In this document: piece after piece, positions 35,143 to 39,213 of the stretch
Layout of the letters: each line of letters starts with the position of its first letter
Numbering within the stretch: the stretch's first letter is position 1
Assembly (NCBI RefSeq): GCF_014678725.1
Contig: NZ_CP061497.1
Coordinates: 310,001 to 374,000 of the forward strand
Reading direction: 5' to 3'
Origin: Thermomonas sp. XSG
Lineage (GTDB): Bacteria > Pseudomonadota > Gammaproteobacteria > Xanthomonadales > Xanthomonadaceae
Length of the DNA: 64,000 bases
Notes under the pieces: generated by a model
The model's database searches: none
Told to the model about the DNA's origin: nothing
Seen by the model: the letters and a program-made list of their open reading frames with translations, nothing else
Translations under genes and position numbers: made by a program

Positions 35143-35808
35143 ATGGCCTCCCTGCTGATCGCCGACGACCACCCGCTGTTCCGCGCCGCGTTGCGGCAGG
35201 CCGCGCGCGACGCGCTGGGCGACGTACAGCTGTTCGAAGCCGGGACGCTGGACCAGGTGCTGGCGCTGCTGGATGCGCAGCCGCAGGTCGACCTGGTGCT
35301 GCTGGACCTGCACATGCCGGGCAACCACGGGCTGGCCGGTCTGGCGGCGATCCGCGCGCAGTTCCCGGGCGTGGCGGTGATCGTGGTTTCGGCCAACGAC
35401 GACCCGCGGGTGGTGCGCCGCGCGCTGGACCACGGCGCCGCCGGCTACCTGCCCAAGAGCGCCGGCCTCGACGAACTGCGCGACGCCATCCGCAGTGTGC
35501 TGGCCTGCGAGACCTGGCTGCCGCCGGCGCTGCGCGCAAGCGTGGCGCGGGCGCAGAGTGCGCCGCAGGATGCGGATCTTGCCGCGCGCCTGGCCAGCCT
35601 GTCGCCACAGCAGTTCCGGGTGCTGGCGCTGGTCGCCGAGGGCCTGCTCAACAAGCAGATCGCCGACCGCCTGGACGTGCAGGAGCGGACGGTGAAGGCG
35701 CACCTGACCGCCATCTTCGAGCGCCTCGGCGTGCGCAACCGCACCCAGGCCAGCGTGGTGCTGCGCGAGCTGGAGCTGTCGGATCCCGCGCGGCAGATCG
35801 AGGCCTGA
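35143..35808 (+). CDS. Orphan LuxR-type response regulator downstream of bdhA
   Basis: 221 residues. The receiver has IADDHPLF and acceptor Asp55 in VLLDLHMPG, with YLPKSAG carrying the switch lysine. The output domain is a LuxR/GerE helix-turn-helix (LSPQQFRVLALVAEGLLNKQIADRLDVQERTVKAHL). No kinase gene is adjacent. Only 4 bp separate it from bdhA, so it may regulate 3-hydroxybutyrate/PHB use (inference by position). A 412-bp non-coding, DnaA-box-rich region follows. Confidence 0.9.
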   Translation: MASLLIADDHPLFRAALRQAARDALGDVQLFEAGTLDQVLALLDAQPQVDLVLLDLHMPGNHGLAGLAAIRAQFPGVAVIVVSANDDPRVVRRALDHGAAGYLPKSAGLDELRDAIRSVLACETWLPPALRASVARAQSAPQDADLAARLASLSPQQFRVLALVAEGLLNKQIADRLDVQERTVKAHLTAIFERLGVRNRTQASVVLRELELSDPARQIEA

Positions 35809-35855
35809 CCCGCACCACGGGAGGGAACCGCATGGCTATTTTTTAGCCAACGCCA

Positions 35856-35935
35856 TTGACAGCCGCACCCCGCCTCGCGCTCGGACGGTTATCCACACCG
35901 TTATACGATTTCCATCCACAGCGGCTGTGGACAAC
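35856..35935. repeat. DnaA-box repeat unit A
   Basis: The core 35889-35935 holds TTATCCACA (perfect DnaA box, 35889-35897), TTATACGA (35901-35908) and an inverted repeat TCCACAG-CGG-CTGTGGA (35915-35931). The last runs into TGTGGACAA (35926-35934), which is TTGTCCACA on the other strand. The similarity with unit B starts about 33 bp earlier, at TTGACAGCCGC (35856), so A and B are 80-bp copies. No gene overlaps. Confidence 0.9.
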
Positions 35936-35994
35936 GCACTTGCCGGAACGCGCCGGCAACCGGAAAAACTCTGGCGAATTTTTCACCACGCCTG

Positions 35995-36074
35995 TTGACA
36001 GCCGCGCCACGCCTGTCGCGCAGGTGGTTATCCACACTCTTATACGAGTTCCATCCACAAGCGCTGTGGACAAC
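35995..36074. repeat. DnaA-box repeat unit B
   Basis: The second copy, 139 bp after unit A, is aligned without gaps over 80 bp. It holds TTATCCACA (36028-36036), TTATACGA (36040-36047), TCCACA (36054-36059) and TGTGGACAA (36065-36073). The preceding TTGACAGCCGC is shared with unit A. Confidence 0.9.
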
Positions 36075-36104
36075 CGCCACCGCGCGGGCCGTCGCAACGG
36101 GAAC

Positions 36105-36129
36105 GGGGTGGCGAAATATTCGCCACCCC
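36105..36129. repeat. Perfect 11-bp stem-loop between DnaA-box units B and C
   Basis: GGGGTGGCGAA (36105-36115) and TTCGCCACCCC (36119-36129) pair around ATA. It has no U-run on either strand. A truncated relative (GGCGAATTTTTCACC) lies between units A and B at about 35973-35987. Confidence 0.8.
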
Positions 36130-36163
36130 GTTGGAAGCATTGGCACGGCTTGCGATCAGCCGC

Positions 36164-36211
36164 TTATCCACATCGTTATGCGACCACCGATCCACAGCGA
36201 TTGTGGACAAC
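36164..36211. repeat. DnaA-box repeat unit C
   Basis: The third copy, 136 bp after unit B, is more diverged: TTATCCACA (36164-36172), TTATGCGA (36176-36183), TCCACAG (36191-36197) and TGTGGACAA (36202-36210). It ends 10 bp before the stop codon of the minus-strand alcohol dehydrogenase gene. Confidence 0.88.
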
Positions 36212-36220
36212 CGTCGCGAC

Positions 36221-37267
36221 TCACATCGTCGCCGCGTCGATCACGAAGCGGTACTTGACGTCGCTCCTGAGCATCCGCTCGTAGGCCGCGTCGATGTCCT
36301 GCGCGCGCACCATCTCGATGTCGGCGACGATGCCGTGCTTGGCGCAGAAGTCCAGCATCTCCTGGGTCTCGGCAATACCGCCGATCAGCGAGCCAGCGAT
36401 CGCCCGGCGCTTGAAGATCAGGTTGCCGATGTTCGGCGAGGGGTGCGCATGCTCCGGCACGCCCACCAGGCACAGGGTGCCGTCACGCTTGAGCAGCGCG
36501 GAGAACGCATCGAGATCGTGGCTGGCCGCCACGGTATCCAGGATGAAATCGAAGCTGTTGCGCTGCGCCTTCATCTGCGCGGCATCGCGCGAGATCACCA
36601 CTTCGTCGGCACCGAGGCCGTGTGCTTCGGCGCGCTTGGATTCGCTGGTGGTGAACGCCACCACCCGCGCGCCCATCGCGTGCGCGATCTTGATGCCCAT
36701 GTGGCCCAGCCCGCCGATGCCGACGATGCCGACCTTCTTGCCGGGCCCGACGTTCCAGTGCCGCAGCGGGGAATAGGTGGTGATGCCGGCGCACAGCAGC
36801 GGCGCCACTGCCGCCAACTGCTCCTTCGGGTGGTGCACGCGCAACACGAAATCCTGGTCGACCACGATGCGCTGCGAATAACCGCCCAGCGTATGGCCCG
36901 GCGCGTCCGCGGTGGGGCCGTTGTAGGTGCCGACCATGCCCTGCTCGCAGTACTGCTCCAGCCCTTCGCCGCAGGCGGCGCAATGCTGGCAGCTGCCCAC
37001 CATGCAGCCCACGCCGACGGTATCGCCCACCTTGAAGCCGGAGACTTCGGCGCCAACCGCGCTGACATGGCCGACGATCTCGTGCCCGGGCACGCAGGGA
37101 TACAGCGTGCCCGCCCATTCGGCGCGCACGGTATGCAGGTCGGAATGGCAGATGCCGCAATAGGCGATTTCGATCTGCACGTCGCGCGGCCCCGGCGCGC
37201 GACGCTCGATGTCCATGGCGACGATGGGTTTGTCGGCGGCGTGGGCGCCCCAGGCTTTGATGGTCAT
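36221..37267 (-). CDS. Zinc-dependent alcohol dehydrogenase, YahK/AdhC (cinnamyl) type
   Basis: 348 residues. Catalytic zinc ligands are in CGICHSDLH and GHEIVGHV; the structural-zinc cysteines are in GSCQHCAACGEGLEQYC. NAD(P) binds at GIGGLGHMGIKIAHAMGA. The family reduces a wide range of aldehydes, usually with NADPH. ATG 37267 follows AGGAAGCC; upstream in-frame sequence looks non-coding. It stands alone on the minus strand; its 3' end abuts the DnaA-box repeat array, so read-through transcription could cross the array. Confidence 0.9.
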   Translation of the reverse strand: MTIKAWGAHAADKPIVAMDIERRAPGPRDVQIEIAYCGICHSDLHTVRAEWAGTLYPCVPGHEIVGHVSAVGAEVSGFKVGDTVGVGCMVGSCQHCAACGEGLEQYCEQGMVGTYNGPTADAPGHTLGGYSQRIVVDQDFVLRVHHPKEQLAAVAPLLCAGITTYSPLRHWNVGPGKKVGIVGIGGLGHMGIKIAHAMGARVVAFTTSESKRAEAHGLGADEVVISRDAAQMKAQRNSFDFILDTVAASHDLDAFSALLKRDGTLCLVGVPEHAHPSPNIGNLIFKRRAIAGSLIGGIAETQEMLDFCAKHGIVADIEMVRAQDIDAAYERMLRSDVKYRFVIDAATM

Positions 37268-37356
37268 GACGGCTTCCTGTCGGGGGGAAACGCCAGATTC
37301 TGCACCCGTCGCGGCCGCGCGGGGAGTGCCCGGCCGGGATGCAGCGTTGCGCCCGT

Positions 37357-37845
37357 TCAGACCCGGGAATAGCGCCAGGACAACATGCGCCCGCCGCTGT
37401 AGGGCATCACCCCATGGAACGCCCGCGGATCGTCGTCGAACACCAGTGGCAGGAAGTGGCGGTCGCCCTCCCACAGCGGCAGCTCCAGGAGGCGCTCGCG
37501 TGCCACCCACTCCAGCGCACCTTCCGGGTTGCGCTCCAGCGGCGCGCCTTCGAACGCATCCACCACGAACACGAAACCCAGCCAGTCCTCGCCATGCTTG
37601 CCGAAGCCCGGCCAGCTGATCGTGCCGCGCAGGCGCAGCGACGTGCACTCGATCCCAGCCTCCTCGCGGATCTCGCGGCGCATGCCGGCCAGCACGTCTT
37701 CATCCGGCTCGATTTTCCCGCCCAGGCCGTTGTACTTGCCGAGGTGGTGATCGCCGGGCCGTGCGTTGCGATGGATCATCAGCACGCTGCCGCCATCGGG
37801 CGACAGCACGTAACCGAGGGTGGCGACGATGGGGGTGTAGGGCAT
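37357..37845 (-). CDS. Nudix hydrolase, MutT/8-oxo-dGTPase-like
   Basis: 162 residues from ATG 37845 (AAGGAC upstream); a longer start at 37881 is less likely. The Nudix box is complete in GGKIEPDEDVLAGMRREIRE followed by EAGI (GX5EX7REUXEEXGU). Flanking features such as GKYNGLGGK and the end GGRMLSWRYSRV resemble MTH1/MutT-like oxidised-nucleotide hydrolases. It hydrolyses a nucleoside diphosphate-linked substrate, with 8-oxo-dGTP a reasonable but unproven choice. It is separated by 89 bp from the alcohol dehydrogenase start, same strand. Confidence 0.88.
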   Translation of the reverse strand: MPYTPIVATLGYVLSPDGGSVLMIHRNARPGDHHLGKYNGLGGKIEPDEDVLAGMRREIREEAGIECTSLRLRGTISWPGFGKHGEDWLGFVFVVDAFEGAPLERNPEGALEWVARERLLELPLWEGDRHFLPLVFDDDPRAFHGVMPYSGGRMLSWRYSRV

Positions 37846-39123: not shown

Positions 39124-39213
39124 GGAAGCGTGGCCGAGTGGTTTAAGGCAGCGGTCTTGAAAACCGCCGATGGGTCAAACCATCCGTGAGTTCGAATCTC
39201 ACCGCTTCCGCCA
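39124..39213 (+). tRNA. tRNA-Ser (TGA anticodon)
   Basis: 90 nt. The acceptor stem GGAAGCG (39124-39130) pairs with CGCTTCC (39203-39209), with discriminator G and an encoded CCA (39211-39213). The anticodon stem GCGGT/ACCGC surrounds loop CTTGAAA, giving anticodon TGA (39158-39160). The long variable arm (GATGGGTCAAACCATC) and T-loop TTCGAAT mark a class II serine tRNA. Confidence 0.97.

Follow-up and report, generated by a model that had tools for sequence, protein, structure and literature searches.

Layout of the Array

The window, that is, the whole stretch of 64,000 nucleotides of Thermomonas sp. XSG that was analysed, contains a non-coding gap at 35809-36220, of 412 bp as given in the first-pass annotation, enclosed by the stop codons of two convergent genes. 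The gene on the left, on the forward strand at 35143-35808, encodes a NarL/ErdR-like response regulator (Response_reg and GerE by family search). On the right, an open reading frame with an uncertain start occupies the reverse strand at 36221-37648; from a reading of its sequence, we take it to be alcohol-dehydrogenase-like. The only tRNA gene found within the window is a tRNA-Ser (TGA) at 39124-39213.

Three tandem units, with their first boxes 139 and 136 bp apart, lie in the gap. Structurally, each unit is an AT-cored dyad of 17 bp followed by a spacer of 39 bp (38 in the third) and by four DnaA boxes. All three units are read on the forward strand and are matched by R1, a sequence-only profile built from 49 modules: unit A at 35833-35934 (match 35830-35936, 63 bits), unit B at 35972-36073 (match 35969-36075, 69.4 bits), and unit C at 36109-36210 (match 36105-36212, 56.2 bits). 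The dyad of unit A, TGGCTATTTTTTAGCCA, lies at 35833-35849, and its inner 15-mer is an exact instance of the Fis consensus given in PMC4245941. It is followed by box 1, TTATCCACA (35889-35897, forward), by box 2, the degenerate DnaA box TTATACGAT (35901-35909, forward), by box 3, CCATCCACA (35912-35920, forward), and by box 4, TTGTCCACA (35926-35934, reverse), which stands head to head with box 3. Boxes 2, 3, and 4 take the positions of boxes III, II, and I in the core of DARS, the chromosomal sites of Escherichia coli where the replication initiator DnaA is recharged from its ADP-bound form; box 1 is an extra to this core.

In unit B, the dyad is at 35972-35988 and the boxes are at 36028-36036, 36040-36048, 36051-36059, and 36065-36073. 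The corresponding positions in unit C are 36109-36125 for the dyad and 36164-36172, 36176-36184, 36188-36196, and 36202-36210 for the boxes. The gaps between successive boxes are 3, 2, and 5 bp in units A and B and 3, 3, and 5 bp in unit C. In all three units, box 2 is in line with box 3 (across 2 bp in A and B and 3 bp in C), boxes 3 and 4 face each other across 5 bp, and the end of the dyad lies 62 bp before box 3. Perfectly complementary arms of 14 nt, with 3 nt between them, enclose the dyad of unit C (36102-36132) and are longer than the dyads of units A and B. Rfam gave no matches in three loci (L034, L060, and L061), and an RNA gene was rejected.

Most of this layout had been sketched in the first-pass annotation. 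Three modules were placed at 35889, 36028, and 36164, and at each position the exact TTATCCACA is indeed followed, after 3 bp, by TTATRCGA and then by TCCACA/TGTGGACAA. The size of 47-48 bp assigned to them is too small, as the upstream dyad at its fixed distance was missed and the first unit starts at 35833, to the left of the range noted. The middle element TTATRCGA, part of an architecture that the annotation had left unnamed, is box 2, a degenerate DnaA box in register; its majority form in the alignment of 49 modules is TTATGCAG, and it is more variable in modules obtained from the profile search. Units A and B are gap-free copies as proposed, but the repeat is 103 nt long at 78% identity rather than 80 bp. 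The periods of 139 and 136 bp are correct as well, whereas the conclusion that the boxes face the same side of the helix does not hold: at 10.5 bp per turn, these values amount to 13.2 and 13.0 turns, which leaves A and B offset by roughly a quarter of a turn, and the spacing is different in relatives (about 181 bp in Luteibacter anthropi, for example).

Rarity and Constraint

The 20-bp sequence with which the box part opens, TTATCCACANNNTTATNCGA, occurs three times in the window when up to three mismatches are allowed, against 0.02 expected from shuffled sequences. With up to two mismatches, the whole 3.05-Mb genome holds four occurrences, namely, the three array copies and one poor single. 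The exact TTATCCACA is found 11 times in this genome, and a reversed control pattern 4 times. The array accounts for three of the 11, and two head-to-head pairs located upstream of priA account for four; of the remainder, two are at dnaA and two are single. The array also contains three copies of TTGTCCACA.

In a comparison with one close relative, a metagenome bin (L060), substitutions affect 0 of 139 positions in the boxes, 1 of 51 in the dyads, and 19 of 213 in the rest of the gap (boxes and dyads against the remaining gap, Fisher P = 4e-5). The genome of the window encodes Fis (NF001659, 113.5 bits against a cut-off of 99) and Hda (TIGR03420, 213.2 bits against a cut-off of 194.8). As both are present, inactivation of DnaA by Hda, and with it a need for recharging, is probable in this host.

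Occurrence in Relatives

The R1 alignment comprises 49 of 66 collected modules, the copies from Luteibacter having been thinned; its counts per genome pool the four-box form with a three-box form found upstream of priA, and stricter filters apply to searches over 40 genomes. In the search of family genomes that the first-pass annotation had proposed, R1 matches were obtained in 313 of 395 genomes and 45 of 54 genera and, at the level of the order, in 205 of 249 genomes, both forms being counted in each case. A second family (f2), which we take to be Rhodanobacteraceae, reaches 13 matches in one genome among those listed. Outside the two families f1 and f2, matches are few, weak, and mostly limited to one per genome. 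Within the window's own genus, the strict filters return a match in 12 of 25 genomes and none in the other 13, and the 20-bp motif of the window, with one mismatch allowed, is present in 9 of 198 family genomes.

Named genomes were also scanned with a pattern, which yielded at least 118 stretches. The pattern required TTAT in box 2 (absent from many modules found by the profile) and a 3-bp gap before it and allowed gaps of 3-9 bp between the head-to-head boxes and of 4-12 bp between boxes 2 and 3. In Lysobacterales, sorted by record title (40 loci among those listed), the head-to-head gap is 5 bp in 64 of 64 hits and the gap between boxes 2 and 3 takes its common value in 62 of the 64 hits listed; across the 80 hits listed from other taxa, both gaps scatter.

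The number of tandem copies varies, with arrays of up to six among the matches listed, and in Luteibacter many loci are found per genome, again among the matches listed. These two features would suit a remnant of a mobile element or of a cryptic origin, or a dispersed repeat with no role in DnaA control. Such an origin is the least probable of the explanations considered, and a very improbable one: several loci are common across genera, the boxes are constrained while their surroundings drift, and DnaA boxes are present at dnaA as usual. The scattering at hundreds of unrelated loci that the first-pass annotation regarded as the mark of a generic repeat was not seen, since each of 28 complete genomes carries from 2 to 13 R1 matches among those listed, at a few loci, several of which are shared between genera. 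A dispersed mobile repeat was accordingly rejected for the subset of loci whose flanking genes were checked.

The locus in the window is common to genera g1, g7, g11, g17, and g18, where a gene for 3-hydroxybutyrate dehydrogenase and/or a response regulator flanks it on one side and the opposite flank is a gene for a NUDIX protein or an alcohol dehydrogenase. Further shared loci lie, for example, between prephenate dehydrogenase and an MsbA-like ABC transporter and between folP and miaA. The flanking genes are convergent at some loci and tandem (folP-miaA) or divergent at others. Loci that are shared across genera, with varied gene orientation, point to vertical inheritance and count against a role as promoter.

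This orientation bears on the proposal that DnaA, and possibly Fis, acts at the array to control or terminate transcription of the neighbouring genes, of which cell-cycle control had been suggested in the first-pass annotation. In the window, the two genes converge on the gap, and two terminator-like sites are found around it (shuffle mean 0.4), both touching the dyad of unit B. No sigma-70-like promoter was found at 35700-36320, so a promoter in the gap was rejected, and because gene orientation differs among loci, regulation of the flanking genes by the array seems very unlikely.

The Dyad and Its Fixed Distance

Exact matches to the Fis consensus, GnnYAnnnnnTRnnC, are present in 24 of the 49 aligned four-box modules, and all of them fall at nearly the same place: the distance to the following box 3 is 62 bp in 20 modules, 63 bp in 3, and 61 bp in 1, with no other offset occupied. 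When the dyad region is shuffled, 0.5 exact matches are obtained on average and 4 at most. When palindromes are ranked with no preference for any offset, the unique best one is located at 62-63 bp in 21 of 34 modules; in another 15 modules, the best palindromes are tied. In the array itself, the exact consensus is found in unit A only, and units B and C miss the exact form. The spacer that separates the dyad from box 1 also contains, in many four-box modules (L206-L236), the inverted repeat CTTGC-n3-GCAAGG.

The best evidence on the dyad comes from 30 loci spread over the class (presumably Gammaproteobacteria), since these were chosen by the core alone and the dyad played no part in their choice. 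Exact Fis sites at 61-63 bp occur in 10 of these loci, from 7 genera, whereas the other 131 offsets together hold 7 exact matches, although the 30 loci are the subset returned and not a random draw and, coming from related genomes, represent fewer than 30 independent trials. Of the seven matches elsewhere, four are at 50-52 bp and one at 71 bp, and these five are about one turn away from 61-63 bp. This distribution suggests that the dyad is a Fis-type site held in fixed phase with the core.

The fixed dyad is also relevant to the main rival explanation, titration, according to which the array would be a sink that keeps DnaA away from oriC and leaves its nucleotide unchanged. An array that gathers three of the genome's 11 exact TTATCCACA together with three TTGTCCACA, and whose tandem copy number varies up to six among the matches listed, would suit a sink. 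A sink, however, needs neither a constant 5-bp gap between head-to-head boxes (64 of 64 hits listed) nor a dyad at a fixed distance, and the sequences of boxes 2 and 3 differ widely from the consensus. On balance, we consider titration unlikely, while ranking it above the other rivals.

The priA-Linked Form and the Class-Wide Core

The weak R1 matches at 0.11-0.31 of the chromosome arm are located, in 13 of 13 genomes fetched, upstream of one and the same gene, identified as priA by a family search on one genome. The element found there has three boxes: a forward box, then the forward box TTATCCACA after a gap of 3 bp, and a reverse box after a gap of 5 bp. In each of the 13 genomes this is an exact DARS core, including the 3-bp gap to box III. 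The core is preceded by a TGG...CCA dyad, the end of which is 62 bp away from the TTATCCACA box in 12 of the 13 genomes and 61 bp away in one, tied palindromes having been resolved toward 62 bp, which favours that value. Upstream of priA, the own genome of the window contains a pair of DARS-type cores at 1718082-1718465 (G000:C1; L192 2071-2470), separated by about 360 bp; one of them carries the dyad at 61-62 bp, and together they account for four of the genome's 11 exact TTATCCACA.

The priA-linked form of Lysobacteraceae and the array have in common the head-to-head pair and the dyad at 61-62 bp; they differ in that the former is an exact three-box DARS core and is proximal to the origin (13 genomes). 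Because the dyad offset is the same in both, the four-box module resembles the three-box form with one box added in the same frame.

At the level of the class, 302 of 370 genomes contain the three-box core when up to two mismatches are allowed. The reversed pattern gave none among the matches listed, but it is a weak control in which the DnaA box is destroyed. The spacing of head-to-head boxes provides a better one: when exact pairs separated by 0-30 bp were collected from 102 of 232 genomes, the gap was 5 bp at 69 of the 75 places listed. Among seven proteins searched by tblastn beside the 30 class-level loci, PriA was found at 8, and the neighbours of the E. coli DARS, MutH, RppH, YgdQ, UvrB, BioD, and PtsP, some of which were represented by fragments, at none of the 30. 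The exact Fis match at 61-63 bp is present at only one of the eight loci beside priA.

Chromosome Position and Orientation

In the genome of the window, dnaA is located at 1,543,526-1,544,836 with its own flanking DnaA boxes, 1.2 Mb away from the array at 345,889. The array was therefore rejected as oriC, in agreement with the first-pass annotation. Mapping relative to oriC and ter, which had likewise been proposed there, places the array at 0.79 of the chromosome arm when dnaA is taken as the mark of the origin; it lies between oriC and ter and at neither, which is the location expected of a DARS.

Positions were compiled with dnaA as the origin mark for 28 single-contig genomes of 13 genera, with lengths rounded to 0.1 Mb for all but the genome of the window (G000) and with the omission of six matches of at most 20.5 bits (one each in G000, G096, G173, and G105 and two in G302). 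Among the matches listed, 69 loci reach at least 35 bits, of which 66 are in the terminus-nearer half of the arm and the other three at 0.49-0.50; the modules point toward the origin at 57 of the 69, and as genomes of one genus share loci, these counts are not independent. The 35-bit threshold drops weak copies of g16, g20, and others, and in g30 a weaker three-copy cluster (below 35 bits) is found at 0.35-0.46 of the arm. In nine genomes of family f2, out of 13 in which dnaA was located, the listed matches extend from 0.32 to 0.93. Three genomes of g357, probably Luteibacter (G832, G886, and G925), have copies on both arms at nearly equal distances from dnaA, 0.36-0.41.

Proposed Function

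The array is probably a set of three tandem copies of a four-box DARS-like element, which would serve as a platform for changing the nucleotide state of DnaA. The support for this reading consists of sequence, geometry, conservation, chromosome position, and the presence of the fis and hda genes. Against it count the weakness of box 2 as a DnaA box and the 2-bp gap between boxes 2 and 3 in units A and B, where E. coli has 3 bp. Among the candidate roles listed in the first-pass annotation, the DARS-like one agrees with the head-to-head 5-bp geometry of E. coli DARS; no support was found for the datA-like and cryptic-origin roles.

The proposed sequence of events would begin with the binding of Fis, or a similar protein, to the AT-cored dyad and the bending of the DNA. 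DnaA would occupy all four boxes, and the pair bound at boxes 3 and 4 would meet through its AAA+ domains, with release of ADP, after which the freed DnaA could rebind ATP. Boxes 1 and 2 may strengthen the assembly as box III does in E. coli, and the presence of three units would multiply the output.

A wider scheme can be put forward more tentatively, as possible but rather doubtful. In it, a Fis-like dyad placed 62 bp before box II, or a whole turn away from that distance, would form together with the head-to-head core a general DnaA-recharging element of gammaproteobacteria, of which DARS2 would be a derived, IHF-dependent form. Lysobacteraceae and Rhodanobacteraceae would have acquired in addition a version with four boxes, amplified into arrays that occupy the middle and terminal stretches of the chromosome arms and mostly point to the origin, so that recharging would rise when those regions are copied.

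The DARS experiments in the literature consulted, as far as its accessible parts go, are on E. coli. A short and rigid element whose core is found by pattern in so many genomes of the class would allow DnaA recharging to be tested in many species beyond it. In addition, models of initiation timing could be tested on the four-box arrays, which reach six copies among the matches listed and differ naturally in copy number and in their place on the chromosome. The four-box form, its arrays, and the priA-linked form are apparently new: no description of them was found in titles and the beginnings of abstracts, PMC12371093 included in the part available, within a literature that mostly leaves subscription journals out.

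Comparison with DARS1, DARS2, and datA of Escherichia coli

According to reviews, boxes I and II in head-to-head orientation are characteristic of and essential to DARS, box III helps, and both Fis and IHF are required by DARS2. Many proteobacteria are stated to possess DARS-like sequences (PMC10380432), and conservation of the DARS2 core is reported for E. coli-related species (PMC4245941).

Like the array, datA is a non-coding cluster of DnaA boxes, and an array of this type would promote ATP hydrolysis by DnaA. The presence of Hda, with which DnaA inactivation probably exists in the host, is compatible with this reading, to which we nevertheless give little probability. datA works with IHF (PMC10380432), whereas the best IHF match in the gap has two mismatches, and an IHF site of the datA or DARS2 type was rejected. 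Its box layout is different, with no 5-bp head-to-head pair in the stretch scanned. R1 has no match, up to E = 1, to datA, DARS1, DARS2, or the dnaA locus of the own genome. As R1 misses both DARS1 and DARS2, the link of the array with DARS rests on geometry and not on sequence similarity.

The cores of DARS1 and DARS2, in reverse complement, read forward, 3 bp, forward, 5 bp, reverse. DARS1 (bioD-uvrB) shares with the array the head-to-head pair across 5 bp, the further box in line with box II, and the intergenic location between oriC and ter. It has three boxes, a 3-bp gap between boxes II and III, and one copy; each of the three tandem units of the array has four boxes and, at 62 bp, a Fis-like dyad, and in two of them the gap is 2 bp. 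In DARS1, no Fis site within one mismatch was found at the 62-bp offset. The sequence TGGCG does occur where the near half of the dyad falls at that offset (TGGCGTTAAAGACGGCT; L137:893-909), the far half being unmatched, and this may be due to chance. The DARS1 flank also contains GGCAAGC and GGCTTGC (L137 859-884), spaced differently from the CTTGC-n3-GCAAGG of the modules. DARS1 needs a flank beside its last box (PMC4585315), which by our reading would be the side of the conserved flank of the array.

DARS2 (rppH-mutH) shares the core geometry and a Fis-consensus site on the side of box III. Its exact Fis match, however, lies at 121 bp, with IHF-like sites in between, and it needs IHF, for which the array has no good site. 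A second head-to-head 5-bp pair, with the weak left box TTATCCCAG, is found in rppH-mutH (L138:1952-1974) about 316 bp from the DARS2 core and resembles the doubled cores upstream of priA.

The gap before box 3, which is 2 bp in two of the units and 3 bp in unit C alone, the two mismatches of the best IHF match, the inexact Fis sites of units B and C, the 121-bp offset in DARS2, the lack of R1 matches to the E. coli elements, and the lack of a match in about half of the genus set the array apart from strict DARS membership. In its working, as judged from the sequence, the array would be DARS-like, and the four-box form is best regarded as a putative variant of the known DARS kind.
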